This document shows positions 12,216-32,820 of a stretch of 34,552 nucleotides of DNA, one piece after another (within the stretch, counting starts at the first letter, position 1; each line of letters opens with the position of its first letter). Source of the stretch: Chloroflexota bacterium (GTDB lineage: Bacteria > Chloroflexota > Anaerolineae > Anaerolineales > UBA11858); the NCBI GenBank assembly GCA_018648225.1, contig JABGRQ010000116.1, positions 1-34,552 of the forward strand. Reading direction: 5' to 3'. The position numbers were made by a program, and so were the translations under genes. The notes under the pieces were generated by a model. It had not been told where the DNA came from, made no database searches, and was given only the letters and a program-made list of their open reading frames with translations.

Positions 12216-12233
12216 CATGTGTTTCAGAATCAA

Positions 12234-12266
12234 AGACCTCCGAAGTTTCGAAAACTTCGGAGGTCT
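12234..12266. terminator. Palindrome after fhs, same core as the one at 2005-2039
   Basis: AGACCTCCGAAGTTT (12234-12248) and its exact reverse complement (12252-12266) form a 15-bp stem with a 3-base loop, 20 bases past the fhs stop. The core CCGAAGTT/AACTTCGG is shared with the palindrome between the SDR gene and fdhA. A terminator role fits position, though the T-run is short. Confidence 0.6.
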
Positions 12267-18294: not shown

Positions 18295-20829
18295 ATGATT
18301 ACCCTCGAAAATACTTCTCTTCAACTTACCATTGACCCCGTTGCTGCGACCTGGAGTTTGTTTGGCAAGCAACCTGATACCCCCTATCTCGAAGGGGTCA
18401 AAATTGGGGCTGAATATCAAATGCCGTTGTCTGCATTATTACATGCCGGACAACGGCATTTTCATTTGCTGGATTTGTGGCCCAAGGCGCGCATCCACGC
18501 CCCGGAGGCATGGAGCAGCCCCCACGGGGCAGCACAGCAGATCACGCTCGAAGTGGGGCCAGATGCCAATGGGATGCTCTTCACCCTGCGTTTTGCCCTG
18601 CTCGACGAATACCCCCTCATGCTCTGGCAAATCAGTGCCGAGAACCGCGGCAAATTCCCCATTGCCATGCAGTCGTTTACCCTGCTGCGGGCAGGCTCCT
18701 TTCAACGTTCTACGCTGCGTTTCCGCCGCGCCCACCTCGGCCCCGGATACCTGACCATCACCGAAAAGCCCGGCGTACCCGATTCGGGCGGCGCTATTCG
18801 CCCGCACCCCGATCCCGGCGAACCGGCCTTCTTCTCGAATGGCTGGCAAAGCTGGTCGCACACTGGAGCCTACGCGCCGGAGGATACCTCCCGCAACACC
18901 CGCCTGGGATTTTTGGCCGCGCAAATGTGGCATAACCCCGAAACACCGCGCCCGCGTAAACCCGGCCATTTCGCCAGCGATATGTTCGGCGTACTCGGCG
19001 ACCGCCAACACCGCACGGGCATATTGGTCGGATTTCTCTCGCAGAAACAGCATTTTGGTTCCCTGCTGACGCGCATTGATGACCCGCTCTCGCCCGCCCT
19101 GCATTTATGGGCCAACGGCGATAACGCCCGCCTCGACCCCGGCGCGAGCATTACCACCGATTGGGCCGCGATTCAGTTTGTAGATGTAGATGACCCCGCC
19201 CCACTTGCGCCCTATCTCGATGCTGTCGCGCGGGAGAATGCCCTCACCCCCGACCCATCTTCCACTGGGAGAGGGGGGCGAGCAGGTTGGTGCAGTTGGT
19301 ACCATTTCTTCCAGAATATTGACGCTGAAAAGATACAAAGCAACTTGAAAGCTGCACAACAAACACAAGAAGAAATTCCCATCAATCTCTTCCAGATTGA
19401 CGACGGTTTTGAAGCCCAAATTGGCGACTGGTTTGAATTTAACGCCGGCTTTCCCAATGGCGTGGCTGCGCTGGCCACCGAAATTCGGGAGGCGGGTTTA
19501 AATCCCGGACTATGGCTGGCGCCATTTATTGTGCATTCGCGCGCCAAACTGCGCCGCCGTCACCGCGACTGGCTGCTGCGCAACAAATGGGGGCTGCCTG
19601 TCAACGCCGGATTTGTGTGGAACAACCTCAACAAAGCCCTCGACCTGACGCACCCCGACGCGCTGGCCTATGCCTGCGATGTCGTCCGCACAGCCGCGCA
19701 CGAATGGGGTTACCCGTATCTCAAACTCGATTTTCTCTACGCCGCGGCGCTCAACGGACGTTACCGCGACCGCACGAAAACCCGCGCCCAGGTATTGCGC
19801 ACGGGTCTCGAAGCCTTGCGCGAAGCCGTTGGGCCAGATGTCGAACTACTCGGCTGCGGCGTGCCGCTGGGTTCGTCCGTTGGCATATTCGATGCCATGC
19901 GCATTGGCGCCGATGTAGCCCCAACCTGGCTACCGGAATTCGCCGGGCATCAGGCGTTATTCCGGCGTGAACCCAGTATGCCATCGGCGCGCAACGCTTT
20001 GCAAAACACGCTCACGCGCGCTGCCATGCACCACCGCTGGTGGGTTAACGATCCCGATTGCCTGCTCATCCGCCTGGATTCAGAGCTTACCCTGCCCGAA
20101 GTACAATCACTCGCCACAGCTATCGCCCTCAGCGGTGGGGCGTTGCTGCTCTCCGACGACCTGCCCAACGTACCTGCCGAGCGTTTGCGTATTGCCCAAC
20201 AACTCTTGCCGCTCATTGGGCAGACACCCCGCGTCCTCGACTGGCTCGACGAACCCCTGCCGCGCCTGCTGCGCCTCGATTTGGAAAACGCTACCGGCAT
20301 CTGGCATTTGCTGGCAATTTTTAATTGGGATAATAAAAAATATAACAAAAATATCCCCCTGGAGCGCTTTGGGCTGGATGGGGAATATTTTGTGCGCTCG
20401 TTTTGGGATGGCGCCACGGACGCGGCTCGGGGTGGGGTGCTGCCCCTGAAGGGAATTCCGCCCCACGGGGTGAAGCTATTGGCCTTGCGAAAAGCCCCCC
20501 CTCAATCCCCCCCGATTCCAGAGGGGAAGGATGGTACCCTCACCCCCGCCCCCTCTCCCATAGGGAGAGGGGAGTCGTTGTATTTGGGCAGCGATTTACA
20601 CATCTCGCAGGGATTGGAAGCAACCCGCTTCATCGTTGCAGACAACTCGCTGGAACTGGAACTCACTCGACCAGGGCATGCCCAGGGGCAGATTGATCTT
20701 TATTTGCCACATCCCCCGCGCGAGGCAAGTCTGAACAGCCTGCCCGTTGCGTGGCAATCTTTGCCGGGGCAGGTATATCGCTTTGGTGTAGATTTCCACA
20801 ACCAGGCAAAACTCAAAATTCAAATGTAG
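18295..20829 (+). CDS. Alpha-galactosidase, glycoside hydrolase family 36
   Basis: An 844-residue cytoplasmic glycosidase (no signal peptide) expected to release alpha-linked galactose from raffinose-type sugars. The N-terminal beta-sandwich (to about residue 310) carries the family motif SNGWQSWSHTG. The catalytic TIM barrel starts at GWCSWYHF and holds QIDDGFE, the nucleophile Asp479 in YLKLDF, and the acid/base Asp540 in IGADVAPTW. A C-terminal beta domain follows. Two low-complexity segments (residues about 316-330 and 735-763) are encoded by palindromic repeat sequence (CCCTCACCC family) inserted in frame at domain boundaries, so the protein is longer than typical bacterial GH36 of about 730 residues. 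Ribosome-binding signal is weak (ATAGG before ATG). Activity and specificity are inferred from motifs. Confidence 0.9.
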   Translation: MITLENTSLQLTIDPVAATWSLFGKQPDTPYLEGVKIGAEYQMPLSALLHAGQRHFHLLDLWPKARIHAPEAWSSPHGAAQQITLEVGPDANGMLFTLRFALLDEYPLMLWQISAENRGKFPIAMQSFTLLRAGSFQRSTLRFRRAHLGPGYLTITEKPGVPDSGGAIRPHPDPGEPAFFSNGWQSWSHTGAYAPEDTSRNTRLGFLAAQMWHNPETPRPRKPGHFASDMFGVLGDRQHRTGILVGFLSQKQHFGSLLTRIDDPLSPALHLWANGDNARLDPGASITTDWAAIQFVDVDDPAPLAPYLDAVARENALTPDPSSTGRGGRAGWCSWYHFFQNIDAEKIQSNLKAAQQTQEEIPINLFQIDDGFEAQIGDWFEFNAGFPNGVAALATEIREAGLNPGLWLAPFIVHSRAKLRRRHRDWLLRNKWGLPVNAGFVWNNLNKALDLTHPDALAYACDVVRTAAHEWGYPYLKLDFLYAAALNGRYRDRTKTRAQVLRTGLEALREAVGPDVELLGCGVPLGSSVGIFDAMRIGADVAPTWLPEFAGHQALFRREPSMPSARNALQNTLTRAAMHHRWWVNDPDCLLIRLDSELTLPEVQSLATAIALSGGALLLSDDLPNVPAERLRIAQQLLPLIGQTPRVLDWLDEPLPRLLRLDLENATGIWHLLAIFNWDNKKYNKNIPLERFGLDGEYFVRSFWDGATDAARGGVLPLKGIPPHGVKLLALRKAPPQSPPIPEGKDGTLTPAPSPIGRGESLYLGSDLHISQGLEATRFIVADNSLELELTRPGHAQGQIDLYLPHPPREASLNSLPVAWQSLPGQVYRFGVDFHNQAKLKIQM
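19241..19285. repeat. CCCTCACCC-family sequence inside the alpha-galactosidase gene, copy A
   Basis: CCCTCACCCC (19241-19250) followed by CTTCCACTGGGAGAGG reproduces the left end and inner hairpin of the intergenic elements, with a degraded right end. It encodes about LTPDPSSTGRGGRAG immediately before the catalytic barrel motif GWCSWYHF. Confidence 0.65.
20497..20576. repeat. CCCTCACCC-family sequence inside the alpha-galactosidase gene, copy B
   Basis: CCCTCACCCCC (20537-20547) precedes a perfect hairpin CCCCTCTCCC (20550-20559) / GGGAGAGGGG (20563-20572) with loop ATA. A related C-rich/G-rich stretch lies just before it (20497-20530). It encodes a Pro/Gly/Ser-rich linker in the C-terminal region of the enzyme without breaking the frame. 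Confidence 0.75.
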
Positions 20830-24022: not shown

Positions 24023-24027
24023 GGACA

Positions 24028-24123
24028 AACCCTCGCCCTGATTCTCGCTATGCTCGAATCTGTCCCTCTCCCAAAATTGGGAGAGGGACGGGCCTGAGTA
24101 AAACGAAGGCCAGGGTGAGGGTT
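24028..24123. repeat. CCCTCACCC-family palindromic element flanking DUF559, left copy
   Basis: The ends AACCCTCGCCCTG (24028-24040) and CAGGGTGAGGGTT (24111-24123) pair with one mismatch. An inner perfect stem GTCCCTCTCCCAA / TTGGGAGAGGGAC spans 24062-24089. It starts 5 bases after the CoA-transferase stop and ends 15 bases before the DUF559 start codon. Confidence 0.85.
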
Positions 24124-24138
24124 GTGCGTGGCAAAATC

Positions 24139-24606
24139 ATGACACAACGCCACAAACGCATTCGCACCACAGCCGCCATACAGCAACGCGCTCGCGAATT
24201 GCGTCAGGATATGACCCCAGCCGAAGAATTACTCTGGAGCCACTTGCGTCGAAAGCAACTCAACGGTCTGAAATTTCGACGGCAGCACCCACTGGGGTCA
24301 TTCATCGCCGATTTTTATTGTGCAGAATATCGTCTGGTCATTGAAATTGATGGTGACATTCATGCTGGCTTGCATGAATATGACGATTTTCGTACGGAGT
24401 GGCTGGAAGACCGTGATTATCGCTTGATCCGTTTTTTGAATGACGATGTGACAGATCGTATTGATACTGTTTTAACTGCTATACAAGCAGCGTGCAAAAA
24501 ACGTAACAAGCCCTCACCCCCGCCTTTCGCTACGCTCAAGGCTCCCCCTCTCCCGAATCGGGAGAGGGGGTTGGGGGGAGAGGGCACACCAAATAGGAGC
24601 ATAACC
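24139..24606 (+). CDS. DUF559 (Vsr-like) endonuclease domain, open in frame into metF
   Basis: From the ATG at 24139, about 118 residues form a complete DUF559 domain: the start TPAEELLWSHLR, then the core FRRQHPLGSFIADFYC, LVIEIDGDIH and the closing YRLIRFLNDDV. The Asp and Glu-x-Asp residues resemble the metal site of very-short-patch-repair-type nucleases of the restriction-endonuclease fold; DUF559 proteins have no established role. After residue 120 the frame runs through a palindromic repeat (24511-24583, encoding a Pro-rich then Gly-rich tail) and meets no stop codon until the end of metF at 25485. The unit therefore either yields a 448-residue DUF559-MTHFR fusion or simply lacks its own stop. 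Related palindromes lie on both sides. No good ribosome-binding site is visible. Confidence 0.8.
24511..24583. repeat. CCCTCACCC-family palindromic element flanking DUF559, right copy
   Basis: CCCTCACCCC (24511-24520) is partly matched by the G-rich right end at 24572-24583. The inner stem CCCCCTCTCCCGA / TCGGGAGAGGGGG spans 24544-24570. It lies inside the open frame linking the DUF559 domain to metF and ends 24 bases before the metF start. Confidence 0.85.
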
Positions 24607-25485
24607 ATGAAACTAACCCATCTCTGGAAAACCAGCCCCAAACCCACCCTGTCTTTCGAACTCTTCCCCGCGCGGACAGAGAAAGCCGCCGCTAATTTGG
24701 ATAAAGCCATCGACAAACTCGCCGCTCTCGGCCCCGATTTTGTCTCGGTGACGTTTGGCGCGGGCGGCTCCACGCGCGATGGATCATATCAACTGGCGAA
24801 AAAATTGAGAGATGAAAAAGGGCTCAAAGTGTTGACCTATTTCGCCTGCTACGGCCTCGGCCCGGATGAAATCACTGCCGTGCTGGATGATTATCAAGCC
24901 TTGGGTATCGAGAATGTATTGGCCGTGCGCGGCGACGAACCCCGCGAGGGCGATTTCACGCCCCATCCAGAGAGCCTGCCCCACGCCTCGGACTTGGTCG
25001 CTTTCATCAAGCCGCGTTATGATTTCTGTTTGGGTGTAGCGGCCTACCCCGAAGGCCACATTGACGCCAAGAGCCGCGTCAAAGATATGGAATTTCTGAA
25101 GATGAAAGTAGACTTGGGCGCGGAATATATCATCACCAATTATTGCTACGATAACGCCTTTTTCTTCGATTTCGTCGAACGTTGCCGCACCGCAGGAATT
25201 GACGTTCCCATTTTGCCCGGCGTGATGCCCATCTTCAGCGTCAAGATGATGGAAATGCTGGCCGGTCTGTGCGGGGCGACCATCACCGATGAAATCCACA
25301 CCGGCATTGCCGCCCTGCCTGAAGACGACAAATCCGCCCTGCTCGATTTCGGCGTAGACTTCGCCGTAAACCAGTGCCGCGACCTGATCGAAGCGGGTGT
25401 GCCGGGGCTGCATATTTATACGATGGATCGCAGCGCATCCAGCGTGAAGATTGCCGCGCGTTTGCGAGATGAAGGTCTGCTGTAG
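24607..25485 (+). CDS. metF: Methylenetetrahydrofolate reductase
   Basis: A 292-residue FAD-dependent MTHFR, reducing 5,10-methylene-THF to 5-methyl-THF: the last folate step of the methyl branch and the methyl source for methionine. TIM-barrel signatures are SFELFPAR, FVSVTFGAGGSTRDG, IENVLAVRGDEP, and VAAYPEGH. The segment usually written ITQ (the folate-contacting Gln, Gln183 in Escherichia coli) reads ITNYCYDN here, a conservative change to Asn. AGGAG at 24595-24599 supports an independent start at 24607, which gives the normal family length, even though the frame is open upstream into the DUF559 domain. It is separated from folD-fhs by about 9 kb and lies on the other strand. Confidence 0.93.
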   Translation: MKLTHLWKTSPKPTLSFELFPARTEKAAANLDKAIDKLAALGPDFVSVTFGAGGSTRDGSYQLAKKLRDEKGLKVLTYFACYGLGPDEITAVLDDYQALGIENVLAVRGDEPREGDFTPHPESLPHASDLVAFIKPRYDFCLGVAAYPEGHIDAKSRVKDMEFLKMKVDLGAEYIITNYCYDNAFFFDFVERCRTAGIDVPILPGVMPIFSVKMMEMLAGLCGATITDEIHTGIAALPEDDKSALLDFGVDFAVNQCRDLIEAGVPGLHIYTMDRSASSVKIAARLRDEGLL

Positions 25486-25571
25486 TATATTTTACGCGCA
25501 TCTGGATTCATACTCATCTCCCATACCAGGTACATCCTCGGAGAAAAAATTACCCACCCAACCCCGCGCCT

Positions 25572-25589
25572 GCTTTGCGAAAGCAAAGC
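25572..25589 (+). other. GAAA-tetraloop hairpin in the metF to SBP gap
   Basis: GCTTTGC (25572-25578) and GCAAAGC (25583-25589) close a GAAA tetraloop. It lies 87 bases after metF and 60 bases before the next gene, without a T-run. It may be a leader structure. The rest of this 163-base gap shows nothing clear besides the ribosome-binding site at its right end. Confidence 0.4.
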
Positions 25590-25648
25590 TGTACCAGAGA
25601 AAATGACTGCTCGCAAGGGCAACCCATAGCAAATGAAAGGAGAATCAC

Positions 25649-26644
25649 ATGTTGAAGAAAATACCTCCCTTTATCGTGCTCGCAATCGTTGTTTTCGTCG
25701 CCACGCTTGTACTGACGGCTTGCGGCAGAGCGGACGATGAAGTTGGGCATTATACGATTGGTCTGGCAACAAACAATCCGAATGGGCTCAAGAATGTTGA
25801 GGGCTTCCGCGATGAGATGACAGCACTTGGCTATATCGAGGGAGAAAACGTCACGTATTTCTTCGCCGATGAACCGACCAAGGGCGACGATCTGGATGCT
25901 GCTCTCGAAAGCATGGTTGAAGCCGAGGTTGATCTCATCTTCACGGCCGGCACGCCCACAGGAGTCGCGGCCCATCGCATCACTAAAGGGACAAATATCC
26001 CCGTTGTGTTCGGCGTGATCGCCAATCCAATAGATGCTGGTGTCATGGACGACTTAACCATGCCGGGTGGCAATATGACTGGCGTACAACTGAGCCAAAA
26101 TCAGGCCCGGCGACTGGAACTGCTCCTCGAGATCGCGCCAGACATCCAACGGGTCTTTTTCCCCTACAACCCTGATGATGCCGCGCCCATCAGCGCGATG
26201 GCACAAATTTTCGAGCTTGCTCCTGGTCTCGGCATTGAGGTCGTGGAGGGATTCGCGCAGAATGATGACGAAGTAACCACATTACTTAATAATTTGCCCG
26301 AGGATATAGATGCCATCTTTATGCTGCCAGATAGCACAATCAATGCCCGCGTGGATGATTTAGTTGCCATTGCCATCGAACGCAAACTGCCGGTTTCTGG
26401 CCCCAGCATGGTACAGGTTGAAGAAGGCGTATTGATGGCTTATGGTACTATCCATTACGAAGTCGGAACACAGGCTGCATCCATCGCAAACCAGATACTC
26501 AAGGGCGCTGACCCTGGCGAATTGCCTGTGCAAACGGCCGAATATTATCTGGGCATCAACATCCAGACTGCTGAGGCGATTGGCGTTGAAATTCCAGCAT
26601 CGCTGGTGCAGGCTGCCGAAGTTATCATAACCATCGAAAAATAA
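25649..26644 (+). CDS. ABC-type substrate-binding lipoprotein (ABC_sub_bind family)
   Basis: A 331-residue periplasmic-binding-protein-like lipoprotein of the ABC_sub_bind (PF04392, formerly DUF534) type. The signal sequence has a lipobox VLTAC with Cys25. The two-lobed domain shows the family pattern: IGLATNNPNGLKNVEGFRDE near the start, GYIEGENVTYFFAD, DLIFTAGTPTGVAA, and IPVVFGVIANPIDAG. AAAGGAGA precedes the ATG at 25649. No permease or ATPase gene is next to it; instead a histidine kinase gene starts 5 bases after its stop. This suggests the protein presents a ligand to the sensor kinase rather than to a transporter. The ligand is unknown; some relatives bind aromatic amino acids. Confidence 0.88.
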   Translation: MLKKIPPFIVLAIVVFVATLVLTACGRADDEVGHYTIGLATNNPNGLKNVEGFRDEMTALGYIEGENVTYFFADEPTKGDDLDAALESMVEAEVDLIFTAGTPTGVAAHRITKGTNIPVVFGVIANPIDAGVMDDLTMPGGNMTGVQLSQNQARRLELLLEIAPDIQRVFFPYNPDDAAPISAMAQIFELAPGLGIEVVEGFAQNDDEVTTLLNNLPEDIDAIFMLPDSTINARVDDLVAIAIERKLPVSGPSMVQVEEGVLMAYGTIHYEVGTQAASIANQILKGADPGELPVQTAEYYLGINIQTAEAIGVEIPASLVQAAEVIITIEK

Positions 26645-26649
26645 TTACT

Positions 26650-28953
26650 GTGAAAAATAGCCTGCGCGTTCGCTTTTCATTAATATTTATTGGTTTGGCA
26701 ATTAGCCCAATATTGTTGGGGTTGATCTTCATCGCGCCATATGCTTTTTCTCGCATCGAAGAAGAGAGCCGAGTCGTACAGAGCAAATTTGCAGAGCAGG
26801 TCAGCATTGAAGTCAGTAAATACTTTGAAGAACGAAAGAACGAACTATTCTTTTTGGATGAAATCTATGCACTAGGAACACTTGAGCCTGATGAACAGCA
26901 AGAACTCTTGAGTGTCTTTCTATTACACCAGAGAATTTATCAGGAAATAGCTTTGCTGGATGCTGAGGGGCAGGAGCAAATTCGATTATCACGTGACACC
27001 ATTTTTCGCAATGAAGACCTCCGGAGTCGCGCCGCAACTCCGGAATTTCTGTCTCCTTTTGAAAACAAGGATATTTACTTTAGCGCAGTTCGTTTTGATG
27101 AAACGCTTCGGGAACCGTTGATTACAATTTCCATTCCGCTCGAAGACCGGTATACCGGAGAGATCGTCTCGGTATTGGTAGCAGAGATGAGATTCAAGGT
27201 GATCTGGGATTTGCTCTCAGAAATTGACATATCTGGCGAAGGGATTGCATATATTGTTGATCAACTGGGGCAGGTAGTAGCCCATAAAAACCCGGCGGTT
27301 GTTTTGAGCGGAACGATAGTAGAACTTCCCGAAGAAGATACCCGCACAGAGGGTTTGTCTGGAAATGATGTTGTCCTCGCAATGAATTTGCTTCAACTTG
27401 GAGAGCAGAGATTGATTGTAGTCGTTGAACAACCTGCTGATGATGTGCTCAAAGTAGTCACGAATAGCCTTAATCTTGCAATCGCTATCCTATTCATTGT
27501 TTTTATACTTGCGGCAGGCCTTGCTATACTAATCGCCAGGCAAGTTGTTGCCCCAATTAATCTATTAGCAGAATCTGCAAAGGCTATCAGTGCTGGCGAC
27601 TTGTCTCAACGAGTAGAATCCACCAGTCAGGATGAAGTAGGGCAGCTTGCTTCCACCTTCAATCAGATGACGAGCGATTTACAAGCATCCCGCCAAAAGG
27701 TTGAACAACACGCACTAGAGTTAGAATCAAAAAATGAGCAGCTACAGCATGATATCAAAAAGCGGATGCAAGCAGAGCAAGCGTTGAGCGAGAGCGAGGC
27801 GCAATTCCGCACTTTATTTGAAAGTTCATCCATTGGTATTGGCGTAGCGGATCAACAAGGCAATTTGCTTATATTCAACGAGACCATGCGTCGAGATAGT
27901 GGATATAGTATCGAAGATCTCAATGCTATTGGCAATGTCGCCGCGCTGTATTACAAACCTGAAGACCGTGAGATAGCGCTAACCCGCTTTCATGAGCAGG
28001 GTATCCTCACAAATTTCCAAACACAATTCATGCGCAAAGATAGCTTGCCCTACGATGTATTCCTATCCCTCACCCCCATTCACTTCAAGGGTCAACCCTG
28101 TATCCAAGCCACTGTCCAAGATATCACCGCACGGGTACAGGCCGAGGCAGAACTTAAAAAATATCAACAGCACCTGGAAGACATGGTCGAAACACGCACC
28201 GCCGAATTGCTAGCCGCCAACAAAGAGATGGAAGCCTTCAATTATTCCGTGTCCCACGACTTACGCGCGCCGCTGCGGCATATTAATGGCTTTATACATC
28301 TCCTGCTCCAACGCAAAGCGGGTCATCTTGATCCCGTATCCGAACATTACTTGAATAACGTCGCCGATGCATCTAAGCATATGGGCAATTTGATCGACGA
28401 CTTGCTGCAATTTTCACGCACTTCACGAGTTGAAATAGCAACCCAAGCAATTGATCCAATATTGCTGGTTGAAAAAATCAAAAAAGACTTGGACCTGATG
28501 ACAGAGAAACGCGAGATTATTTGGGATATTTCACCTCTCCCAAAAGTATGGGGTGATCCTGGGTTAATCGGCATTGTCTGGACAAATTTGATTTCCAATG
28601 CGGTGAAATTCACTAACCACCGAGAGCGGACACATATCGAGATTGGATGCCAATCCCCAAAAGATTCTCGTCAAACACTTCAAACCAGGCGGGGCCAAGC
28701 GCTGGCAGAAGATTCCAATGAAATTGTATTCTTCATCCGCGACAATGGAATTGGCTTCGAGCCTCAATATGTAGATAAGCTCTTTGCTGTTTTTCAACGT
28801 TTACATCAAACGGAAACTTATGATGGCACTGGTATCGGCCTTGCTATCGTCAAGCGCATCATCCACCGTCATGGGGGAGATGTGTGGGCCGAATCCAAAA
28901 AAGGTGAAGGAGCTACCTTCTATTTCACCTTGAAATCAGCCAACAACGGTTGA
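26650..28953 (+). CDS. Sensor histidine kinase with extracytoplasmic, HAMP and PAS domains
   Basis: A 767-residue membrane kinase. In order: transmembrane helix at about residues 8-32; a large extracytoplasmic region (33-270, Cache-like by layout); second helix at about 274-297; HAMP (300-350); coiled coil; PAS domain (about 380-500); HisKA dimerisation domain with the phospho-accepting His536 in SVSHDLRAPL; and an HATPase domain with NLISNAVKFT, DNGIGFEPQ, and GTGIGLAIVKRIIHRHGG. It starts with GTG right after the substrate-binding lipoprotein (5-base gap), so the two are cotranscribed and probably form a ligand-sensing pair. No response regulator is in the window. The gene is more AT-rich than its right-hand neighbour. 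A short insertion lies between the N and G1 boxes of the ATPase domain. Confidence 0.9.
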   Translation: MKNSLRVRFSLIFIGLAISPILLGLIFIAPYAFSRIEEESRVVQSKFAEQVSIEVSKYFEERKNELFFLDEIYALGTLEPDEQQELLSVFLLHQRIYQEIALLDAEGQEQIRLSRDTIFRNEDLRSRAATPEFLSPFENKDIYFSAVRFDETLREPLITISIPLEDRYTGEIVSVLVAEMRFKVIWDLLSEIDISGEGIAYIVDQLGQVVAHKNPAVVLSGTIVELPEEDTRTEGLSGNDVVLAMNLLQLGEQRLIVVVEQPADDVLKVVTNSLNLAIAILFIVFILAAGLAILIARQVVAPINLLAESAKAISAGDLSQRVESTSQDEVGQLASTFNQMTSDLQASRQKVEQHALELESKNEQLQHDIKKRMQAEQALSESEAQFRTLFESSSIGIGVADQQGNLLIFNETMRRDSGYSIEDLNAIGNVAALYYKPEDREIALTRFHEQGILTNFQTQFMRKDSLPYDVFLSLTPIHFKGQPCIQATVQDITARVQAEAELKKYQQHLEDMVETRTAELLAANKEMEAFNYSVSHDLRAPLRHINGFIHLLLQRKAGHLDPVSEHYLNNVADASKHMGNLIDDLLQFSRTSRVEIATQAIDPILLVEKIKKDLDLMTEKREIIWDISPLPKVWGDPGLIGIVWTNLISNAVKFTNHRERTHIEIGCQSPKDSRQTLQTRRGQALAEDSNEIVFFIRDNGIGFEPQYVDKLFAVFQRLHQTETYDGTGIGLAIVKRIIHRHGGDVWAESKKGEGATFYFTLKSANNG

Positions 28954-29005
28954 TATTTGTCGAACCCAGTAGAGCTGGAAAATAAGAATCTTTCCATAAA
29001 TACTT

Positions 29006-31075
29006 ATGCCGAAACAACCTCATCCCATTACCCTCAACCCCTTCTTCAACCCCAAAGGCGTAGTCATCATTGGAGCCTCCAACGACCCCGCCAAGCTGGG
29101 CTACGGTCTCGCTATCAATCTGGTGCGCAGCAATTACCAGGGAGCGATTCACTTTGTCAACCTTAAGGGCGGAGAACTTTTGGGACGCACAATTTATACC
29201 AACGTACTGGAAATCCCCAATCCAGTGGATTTAGCCGCCGTGCTGATTCCCGCGCCCTACGTGGCCGACGCCCTGCGTCAGTGCGGGCAGCGCGGCATTC
29301 AGGCCGCCATCATCGGCTCCGGGGGATTCCGCGAAGTCGGCTCAGAAGGCGCCGCGCTCGAAGAAGAAATTCTCGCAGTTGCCCGCCAGTACAGCATTCG
29401 GCTGATCGGCCCCAACTGCATCGGCCTGCTCGATACGCATCTGCCCATCGACACCACTTTCCTGCCGCCGCCCGGCCCCACCCCCGGGGATGTGGCCTTT
29501 ATCTCGCATTCCGGGGCGATTTGCGCCGCAGTCATCGATTGGGCGCGCGGCCAGGGTTATGGCCTTTCGCGGCTGGTCAGTTTGGGAAATCAGGCCGATG
29601 TCAGTGAAACCGACATGCTCGCCCCCGTCGCCGCCGATCCCTTCACGCATGTGCTGGCGCTCTACATCGAGGGCGTCAAGGATGGTCGTCGTTTTGTCGA
29701 AGAAGCCCGCAAAGTTGTGCAAGAAAAACCCATTATCGCCCTCAAAGTCGGACGTTTCGAGGCCGGTCAGCGGGCGGTCGCTTCGCACACCGGCGCGCTG
29801 GCCGGGCAAGAAAGCGCCTACAACGCCGCATTCCGGCGGGGGGGTGTGCTGCGCGCCGCAACCAGCGAAGAGATGTTTGATCAGGCGCGCGCCCTGGCCT
29901 GGTGTCCGTTGCCGAAGGGACGCAAGGTGGCTGTTTTAACGAATGCCGGCGGACCGGGAGTCACCGCCGCCGATGCACTCGAAGCCCTGGGTTTGGAACT
30001 GGCCGAATTAAGTGGAGAAACGCGCGCCGCTCTAGGTGGCCTGCTGCCCCCGGCGGCCAGTCTCAGCAACCCGGTGGATATGCTGGCCTCGGCGGGGCCT
30101 GAGCAATTTGCCGCCAGCCTGCGAATCGCGCTGGCCGACCCCGGCGTAGACAGTGTCATGGCAATTTATCCCACCCCGCCAATGTACACCGCCGGAGCCG
30201 TCGCCAAAGCGATGATTCCCATCATCCACGGGGCTGAGAAGCCGGTAGTTGTGGCTGTGATGGGCGAACGTCTCATTCAAGAAGCCGTCGAGCATCTACG
30301 CGCCGCGCGGGTACCCGAATATCGCTTCCCCGAACGCGCCGCGGCGGCGTTAGCGGCTCTCGTCGAGCGCGCCGAATTGCTGAAGTTCGCACAAGATGAG
30401 CCGGTATTCCCCGTCAATACGCCTGACGTCACGACATCCGACGCCGCGACGCTTTTGCGTGCCTACGGCATCCCCAACGCGGCGCTGCATCTGGCGCACG
30501 CGCGCGCGGAGGCCGTTGCCATCGCCGCCGAAATCGGATTCCCCGTGGTGATGAAAATTGCCGCGGAAGGCATTTCGCACAAATCCGACATCGGAGGGGT
30601 GCTGCTCAATTTGGGGGACGCGGCTGCGGTGCAATCGGCCTGGGATGAGATTATGCGCCGAGCGCAGGCCGCCCACCCCGAGGGAGTCATCGAAGGCGTG
30701 CATCTTCAGCAGATGATTCCCCGCGGGCAGGAAGTCATTATCGGCGCGGTACGTGATCCCCAATTTGGCCCGCTGGTGATGTTCGGCTCCGGTGGCACAG
30801 AAGTTGAAGGCTTGAAAGACATCGCCTTTGGCCTGGCCCCGCTGACGCGCAGCGACGCCGAATATATGCTCGAAAAAACCTGGGCCGGGCGAAAATTACG
30901 CGGCTTCCGTAACATCCCCCCCGCCGATCGGGATGCTGTGTTGGATGCGCTTTTCCGGCTGGCGCAACTGGCCTTTGAACACCCCGAAATTGAGGAGATA
31001 GAAATCAACCCCCTGCGGGTGTTGGCGCAAGGGGTTGTGGCCGTCGATGTGCGATATATAACGGTTGAAGGTTGA
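29006..31075 (+). CDS. ADP-forming acetate/acyl-CoA synthetase, alpha-beta fusion
   Basis: A 689-residue NDP-forming acyl-CoA synthetase. It conserves energy by turning an acyl-CoA, ADP and phosphate into the free acid, CoA and ATP. The alpha part (to about 460) has the CoA-binding domain (VVIIGASNDPAKLGYG), succinyl-CoA-ligase-like domains, and the phosphohistidine His261 in VASHTGALAG. The beta part is an ATP-grasp domain with GFPVVMKIAAEGISHKSDIGGV and the C-terminal EIEINPLRV. The order alpha then beta in one chain is common in bacteria. The ATG at 29006 has only a weak ribosome-binding site. It converges on the FabF-like gene across a repeat-rich hairpin. Confidence 0.93.
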   Translation: MPKQPHPITLNPFFNPKGVVIIGASNDPAKLGYGLAINLVRSNYQGAIHFVNLKGGELLGRTIYTNVLEIPNPVDLAAVLIPAPYVADALRQCGQRGIQAAIIGSGGFREVGSEGAALEEEILAVARQYSIRLIGPNCIGLLDTHLPIDTTFLPPPGPTPGDVAFISHSGAICAAVIDWARGQGYGLSRLVSLGNQADVSETDMLAPVAADPFTHVLALYIEGVKDGRRFVEEARKVVQEKPIIALKVGRFEAGQRAVASHTGALAGQESAYNAAFRRGGVLRAATSEEMFDQARALAWCPLPKGRKVAVLTNAGGPGVTAADALEALGLELAELSGETRAALGGLLPPAASLSNPVDMLASAGPEQFAASLRIALADPGVDSVMAIYPTPPMYTAGAVAKAMIPIIHGAEKPVVVAVMGERLIQEAVEHLRAARVPEYRFPERAAAALAALVERAELLKFAQDEPVFPVNTPDVTTSDAATLLRAYGIPNAALHLAHARAEAVAIAAEIGFPVVMKIAAEGISHKSDIGGVLLNLGDAAAVQSAWDEIMRRAQAAHPEGVIEGVHLQQMIPRGQEVIIGAVRDPQFGPLVMFGSGGTEVEGLKDIAFGLAPLTRSDAEYMLEKTWAGRKLRGFRNIPPADRDAVLDALFRLAQLAFEHPEIEEIEINPLRVLAQGVVAVDVRYITVEG

Positions 31076-32594: not shown

Positions 32595-32820
32595 ATTTTC
32601 TGGCGAAAACTGTAGTGGGCAATAGTAGCTTGAACAGCGAAACCATCGTTGTCATTCCGAGCGTAGCGAGCGAAGCGAGGAATCCCTTTGAAGCGGCTTG
32701 ATTCATCACTTGCATAGGTACTTTTCAACATTCCGGTTAAGGGATTCTTCACTCCGCTCCGCTCGCTGCGCTCGGAATGACGCCAAGCTTTTGTTGACGA
32801 TTATATTTTCTGGCGAAAAC
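32595..32820. repeat. 16-bp direct repeat pair around an inverted-repeat element
   Basis: ATTTTCTGGCGAAAAC occurs exactly at 32595-32610 and 32805-32820. Between them lies an element whose ends, GTCATTCCGAGCG (32651-32663) and CGCTCGGAATGAC (32769-32781), are perfect inverted repeats, with inner AGGAATCCCTT / AAGGGATTCTTC also pairing. The arrangement fits insertion of about 210 bases with duplication of 16. It occupies the fabF leader. Confidence 0.75.

Follow-up and report, generated by a model that had tools for sequence, protein, structure and literature searches.

A DUF559 nuclease gene between dispersed palindromes upstream of metF in a Chloroflexota genome: a candidate small homing-like mobile element

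Genes and palindromes at the locus

The window analysed here is a stretch of 34,552 nucleotides, contig 116 of a Chloroflexota genome of 4.02 Mb in 226 contigs. Between a CoA-transferase gene and metF it carries a nuclease gene with a palindromic element on each side. The left element (inverted repeat I1, 24028–24123; unstranded, like all palindromes described below) has 47-nt arms with 72% complementarity and a perfect core, CCCTCTCCCAAAATTGGGAGAGGG; its outer arms, AACCCTCGCCCT and AGGGTGAGGGTT, flank a core hairpin, CCCTCTCCC-AAAATT-GGGAGAGGG, at 24064–24087. The right element (24511–24584), with the core CCCCCTCTCCCGAATCGGGAGAGGGGG, runs from CCCTCACCCCC through the hairpin CCCCCTCTCCC-GAATC-GGGAGAGGGGG (24544–24570) to GGGGGGAGAGGG, and the left parts of the two elements are 73% identical over 40 nt. 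These palindromes are not a product of chance, since equally strong two-sided hairpins are found at only 0.47% of random positions in comparable loci, and pattern searches of the whole genome return 45 copies of the core palindrome CCTCTCCC-N1-12-GGGAGAGG against none for the reversed control.

The nuclease reading frame (24139–24606, plus strand) probably starts at the ATG at 24139, its earliest start being a GTG at 24115 inside the left palindrome, and extends up to the start of metF without a stop codon of its own. The gene metF (24607–25485, plus strand), whose product is a clear methylenetetrahydrofolate reductase by Pfam and NCBIfam, is in the same frame; the resulting ORF, 24115–25485, has no internal stop and holds both the DUF559 and the MTHFR/MetF domains (Pfam). 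The Pfam profile PF04480 matches at 24178–24495 on the plus strand (E 4.6e-37; 128 bits against a gathering cut-off of 20.6), and the DUF559 domain is complete, as the match spans positions 3–108 of 109. A first-pass annotation of this DNA had described a complete DUF559 domain between two palindromic elements and an open frame continuing to the end of metF, and both descriptions are accurate. Its further claim that the right palindrome had replaced the 3' end of the nuclease gene is not borne out: the domain is whole, and the gene lacks nothing but a stop codon. The weight it had placed on the fusion to metF is likewise not sustained. A Shine-Dalgarno-like AATAGGAG (24592–24599, plus strand) adjoins the right palindrome on its right, and because metF can start from this ribosome-binding site and its own ATG at 24607, an obligate nuclease–MetF fusion protein is unlikely and the in-frame junction is probably incidental. 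On this ground, and because the metF genes of other genomes in the genus have a different location and no unit beside them, the fusion was rejected as the functional main point of the locus.

Sequence and predicted fold of the DUF559 protein

In domain listings, DUF559 still has no assigned function. Beside the Pfam match, the window nuclease matches the NCBIfam model PRK09767/DUF559 with an E-value of 4.2e-26, under the curated cut-off of that model. Putative active-site residues, namely E, D, E-x-D, H and D, are invariant across the family in alignments of 12 and of 32 sequences, and all are present in the window protein, which has the E of AEELLW, the D of ADFY and the E, D and H of IEIDGDIH. 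A structure model built from 32 sequences (pLDDT 84.5) was compared with solved structures by Foldseek, and the model gave only two matches with E < 0.001, to the Neisseria protein 3hrl (TM 0.93) and to I-Bth0305I (3r3p; TM 0.80, E 3.8e-4). The nearest solved structure, 3hrl (NGO0050), belongs to the same Pfam family with 38% identity, and a sequence-profile search places the same two structures first, with 3r3p at E 9.5e-5 (hmmsearch). The protein is predicted to be a PD-(D/E)XK/EDxHD-type endonuclease related to the homing endonuclease I-Bth0305I, whose fold it appears to share. EDxHD nucleases are listed among the homing endonuclease families in reviews (PMC3943268), and a DUF559-containing gene has been assigned to the EDxHD family (PMC9403480). 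By Pfam, neither the window ORF nor the valS and metH reading frames described below contain a Hint domain. As a separate observation made by eye, DUF559 appears to take the position of the homing nuclease in Hint-type inteins of some DNA methyltransferase genes (L062, L065, L067), and these intein copies make up one clade of the nuclease tree (100/97).

Enrichment of palindromes around DUF559 genes

The first-pass annotation had suggested asking whether palindromes flank DUF559 genes more often than other genes, and they do so far more often, in Chloroflexota as well as in other phyla. With a hairpin defined as a perfect stem of at least 9 and a loop of 3–14, hairpin density at 83 Chloroflexota DUF559 loci, which are the best-scoring matches rather than a random sample and come in many cases from MAGs, was 3.0 per kb within 300 bp of the domain and 0.27 per kb beyond 1 kb. 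Strict hairpins stood on both sides at 40 of these loci, about half being without them, compared with 0.47% of 14,027 random positions; a hairpin on at least one side was present at 63 of the 83, compared with 12.5%. For the other ORFs at these loci the counts were 9/338 (two-sided) and 93/338 (any side). Seven of the 40 two-sided loci are orthologous metH copies, without which the count is 33/76. In a second set of 59 loci, nearly all from outside Chloroflexota (Bacteroidota, Cyanobacteria, Planctomycetota, Nitrospinota, Patescibacteria and others), two-sided hairpins were found at 18 (0.58% of random positions) and hairpins on any side at 31 (11.6%).

The association is specific to the DUF559 gene. 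Hairpins with one pyrimidine and one purine arm (Y/R hairpins) occurred on both sides of 30/83 DUF559 genes, 0/20 Y1_Tnp genes (RAYT/IS200-like) and 0/30 HNH genes, the latter two groups having been drawn from palindrome-rich genomes while the DUF559 loci include genomes that are not. Among 400 genomes of Chloroflexota, 92 of the 132 with a DUF559 match at E <= 1e-10 and 60 of the 268 without one held five or more CCTCTCCC palindromes (odds ratio 8.0, p 7e-20), and the association persists when labels are shuffled within GTDB families (p about 3e-4). For Y1_Tnp (PF01797) and the CCTCTCCC palindromes in the same 400 genomes, no association was detected (odds ratio 1.35, p 0.18; within families p 0.82). 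A RAYT transposase was considered as the mobiliser of the palindromes and was rejected on this missing genome-level association and on the 0/20 Y1 genes bracketed by Y/R hairpins. In addition, 27 Chloroflexota genomes have at least 20 palindromes and no DUF559 match at E <= 1e-10.

Anatomy, dispersal and types of the palindromes

Many of the inspected palindrome copies in the genome of the window lie in frame inside conserved genes, including those for an aminotransferase of class I/II, dihydropteroate synthase, a GHMP kinase, an IF-2B-family enzyme and a melibiase-like protein. The last of these is in the window itself: a stand-alone palindrome of the same family (20537–20572) and a second, degenerate one (19241–19276) both sit in frame in a melibiase/alpha-galactosidase-like gene (ORF 18295–20829). 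The window also holds other repeats, among them a different dispersed palindrome (AAGACTTCCGAAGTTTTGATAACTTCGGAAATCT / AAGACCTCCGAAGTTTCGAAAACTTCGGAGGTCT) at 2005–2040 and 12232–12266, each copy a near-perfect hairpin, and at 32651–32781 a further repeat family with a 27-nt inverted repeat (93%), GTCATTCCGAGCGTAGCGAGCGAAGCG, and 77 nt between its arms.

The hairpins of the DUF559 loci have outer arms with a fixed orientation, as examined in 32 loci of the CCCTCTCC and CCCTTCCC types. A CCCTCACCC-like arm was found to the left of the left hairpin in 13 cases to 0 and to the left of the right hairpin in 17 to 0; a GGGTGAGGG-like arm was found to the right of the left hairpin in 17 to 0 and to the right of the right hairpin in 12 cases, with 2 exceptions. 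Given this strict polarity, each flank is often a whole element of the form arm–hairpin–arm. A GTAG-type tag was absent from the hairpin base, the outer arms being CCCTCACCC..GGGTGAGGG. The 5' arm was at least 90% pyrimidine in 78% of hairpins near DUF559 and in 21% of distant ones.

Across loci the palindromes fall into several sequence types, and the left and right arms within one locus are more alike than arms from different loci (p 5e-5), also in the 12 loci outside the CCCTCTCC type (p 1.5e-4). Within family f2, palindrome similarity tracks nuclease identity with a Mantel r of 0.82. However, the type-B CCCTTCCCT loci of this family are syntenic and part of the co-variation is vertical, so this value was set aside as proof and replaced by a test on non-syntenic loci: with all pairs showing any flanking homology removed, palindrome type still tracks nuclease similarity (r 0.21, p 2e-4). 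In other phyla, the six genomes that have CCCCTCCTT..AAGGAGGGG, or a sequence close to it, around DUF559 carry 7–44 dispersed copies of it, compared with none in 5/6 genomes with other palindrome types. By hand count over 32 genomes, about 16/57 CCCTTCCCT..AGGGAAGGG copies have a DUF559 gene less than 500 bp away. The genome of the window has four PF04480 matches. One of them, its third short DUF559 gene (L001, G000:C74), has no strict hairpin nearby; by eye, there are imperfect CCCCCCAAAT..ATTTGGGGAG palindromes on one side, a type found with its own nuclease clade.

Occupied and empty insertion sites

The arrangement in the window recurs inside ordinary genes. In the same genome, another short nuclease (L002) is likewise flanked by a pair of such palindromes, and this complete unit sits in frame within the valyl-tRNA synthetase gene, whose single ORF reads tRNA-synt_1, DUF559 and Anticodon_1 (Pfam). 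Within this genus the valS site holds the whole in-frame unit in the genome of the window (G000), G404 and G403 and is empty in G401 and others, while only a palindrome-like linker is present in G410, which belongs to the same family. The linker of the methionine synthase gene, metH, shows every state: it is empty in G072, G428, G104 and G005, contains palindromes only in G467, G473 and G427, and contains an in-frame palindrome–DUF559–palindrome unit in f2 genomes, G477 (f99), G423 (f95) and G375 (f26); G423 and G375 could be misbinned, since their contigs are short (about 3–4 kb). One genus includes both G477, with the metH unit, and G438, without it. No clear target-site duplication was seen between full and empty metH and valS sites, whose linkers diverge; inverted outer arms with strict polarity surround each hairpin. 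Further DUF559 hosts are DNA methyltransferase genes (L049–L052, L064).

In a tree of 87 nucleases, whose deeper forks are unsure because the alignment has few columns, the metH-embedded copies form one clade across families (98/94) and the valS-embedded copies another (99/92). The dN/dS values of embedded nucleases, where computable, are 0.06–0.20, and by this measure the embedded nucleases are under purifying selection. Separately, the metH and valS linkers that hold DUF559 units in relatives accumulate several repeat families, and those of L289, L279, L295, L166 and L167 contain unrelated short tandem repeats of the TTACACAGA, TTACCAA and GACCGAC types.

For the window site, a comparison of empty sites at metF itself was uninformative because the upstream genes differ, and it was the CoA-transferase side that gave an empty site, for a stretch of 5 kb. 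In the same-genus genomes G403 and G401 the CoA-ligase gene that starts at 29006 in the window comes immediately after the CoA-transferase gene or about 340 bp beyond it; therefore, 24023–29005 (no strand assigned), with the unit at its left end, is missing there. The comparison with relatives proposed in the first-pass annotation thus finds the unit absent from two close genomes, together with the entire stretch including metF, for which reason the exact end of the insertion at metF is undefined. The earlier suggestion that a mobile repeat–nuclease–repeat unit landed upstream of metF is supported in part, such units recurring in valS and metH with empty sites in relatives.

Interpretation and rival explanations

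The reading we prefer, with a probability of roughly 60%, is that the window feature is a copy of a small homing-like mobile element, composed of palindrome, DUF559 nuclease and palindrome, and that the nuclease spreads the palindromes which form its flanks. It draws on the architecture, the enrichment and its specificity, the presence and absence at orthologous sites, the matching of types and the purifying selection, as these appear in the genome sequences. Most likely, pyrimidine/purine palindromes matching the nuclease in type would be its cutting sites or would direct the cut, and the break would be repaired from a palindrome-bearing copy, so that the new site gains either the palindrome alone or the complete nuclease unit. 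In this scheme the nuclease unit would be autonomous, whereas the bare palindromes dispersed in the genome would be non-autonomous and moved in trans. In-frame insertions into tolerant linkers of conserved genes may survive because the palindromes have open reading frames. In the window, the unit would have lost its stop codon, giving the probably incidental in-frame junction with metF. Cleavage, its substrate, the copying step, movement and the role of the nuclease as driver are what we infer; the first-pass proposal of a nuclease that may cut or mobilise the repeats is consistent with their co-occurrence, their co-variation and the homing-endonuclease-like fold.

The main alternative, which we consider possible at perhaps a third of the weight of the preferred reading, is that other machinery spreads the palindromes and that DUF559 is a selfish homing-type nuclease, which cuts palindromes as landing sites and is copied into them without spreading the bare ones. 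The 27 palindrome-rich genomes without DUF559 fit this alternative, and they also fit the loss of an autonomous copy. That the same metH linker holds palindrome-only forms as well as whole units, and that nucleases like I-Bth0305I home into specific sites (PMC3943268), also speaks for landing sites. However, palindrome type shifts with nuclease lineage, RAYT-like Y1 transposases are not associated with the palindromes and no other candidate for the spreading machinery is known.

It is far less probable that DUF559 genes simply sit in dispensable, repeat-collecting regions with the palindromes as functionally unlinked passengers of tolerant DNA. Other short repeats do gather in the same metH and valS linkers, but in palindrome-rich genomes neither the 30 HNH nor the 20 Y1_Tnp genes have Y/R hairpins on both sides, the left and right copies at a locus are matched in type, the genome-level co-occurrence is specific and the embedded nucleases are under purifying selection. 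Least probable of all, if narrowly, is a regulatory role for the palindromes within the nuclease gene, as terminators, attenuators or a silencing hairpin, the whole being a vertically inherited host or defence gene rather than an element, for although some units are syntenic within one family and hairpins near gene ends look like terminators, the same palindromes are scattered genome-wide and in frame within conserved coding genes, units lie in frame in valS and metH where a terminator would harm, empty sites exist in the same genus and control genes lack such hairpins.

Significance

The sequence comparisons, over hundreds of genomes, show that nuclease and repeats go together across many bacteria and enter ordinary genes as a unit, and they suggest that the enzyme spreads the repeats. 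A review treats the agent that moves most bacterial palindromic repeats as unsettled (PMC2229807), and a nuclease gene between matched palindromes, in many phyla, makes the question of the repeat mobiliser testable in the laboratory. Further, whole nuclease domains persist in frame in valyl-tRNA synthetase and methionine synthase, under purifying selection and with no obvious splicing, which bears on protein domain gain and on the automated annotation of such genes. The wider proposal, to which we would give an even chance, is that Y/R palindromes and DUF559 constitute a widespread, unnamed class of bacterial mobile element, with an autonomous palindrome–nuclease–palindrome unit and bare palindromes moved in trans. 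Such a class would differ in mechanism from IS/MITE and REP/RAYT systems, could put a whole functional nuclease domain into essential enzymes in frame and with no splicing involved, and would provide the mobiliser so far lacking for in-frame palindromic elements like those of Rickettsia. No earlier link between DUF559 and palindromes was found in the literature searched, subscription papers and preprints lying outside it.

Comparison with known systems

A close parallel is with REP/RAYT systems and REPINs, in which dispersed hairpin repeats have a type linked to a single-domain enzyme gene with copies of the repeat on its flanks (PMC2817692, PMC3116915). A DUF559 gene flanked by a repeat dispersed in the same genome is the same arrangement. 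However, the enzyme here is a predicted PD-(D/E)XK/EDxHD-type nuclease and not a Y1 HUH enzyme, Y1_Tnp does not co-occur, the palindromes have pyrimidine/purine arms without a GTAG tag and the DUF559 units insert into genes in frame.

Rickettsia palindromic elements (RPEs) are open-frame palindromes that lie in frame in conserved genes and are apparently tolerated (PMC2229807). The DUF559-type palindromes found in frame in the conserved genes listed above are alike in this respect. Here, a nuclease gene rides between the palindromes, whereas no mobilising enzyme is named for RPEs (PMC2229807).

With the EDxHD homing endonuclease I-Bth0305I (3r3p), the DUF559 protein has the predicted fold and a detectable profile similarity in common, and some DUF559 domains are found in inteins. 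Unlike I-Bth0305I, the window DUF559 lies outside any group I intron or intein, is short, without evident extra DNA-binding domains, and has dispersed palindromes on either side in place of unique homing flanks. Within the Pfam family itself, VsrA of Caulobacter (DUF559/COG2852) has been discussed as a nuclease of mismatch repair with a link to a cytosine methyltransferase, and mobile palindromes are not reported for it (PMC12907096). As a side observation from another genome, segments of Legionella pneumophila Paris with a transposase and a DUF559 nuclease have been reported as mutation and recombination hotspots (PMC12308824).

Finally, the GC clusters of yeast mitochondria, whose spread has been proposed to be aided by endonucleases (PMC4478555), are likewise GC-rich palindromic mobile repeats. 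Those repeats are organellar and the endonucleases proposed for them are intron-encoded, whereas in the units described here the nuclease gene is carried between the palindromes.
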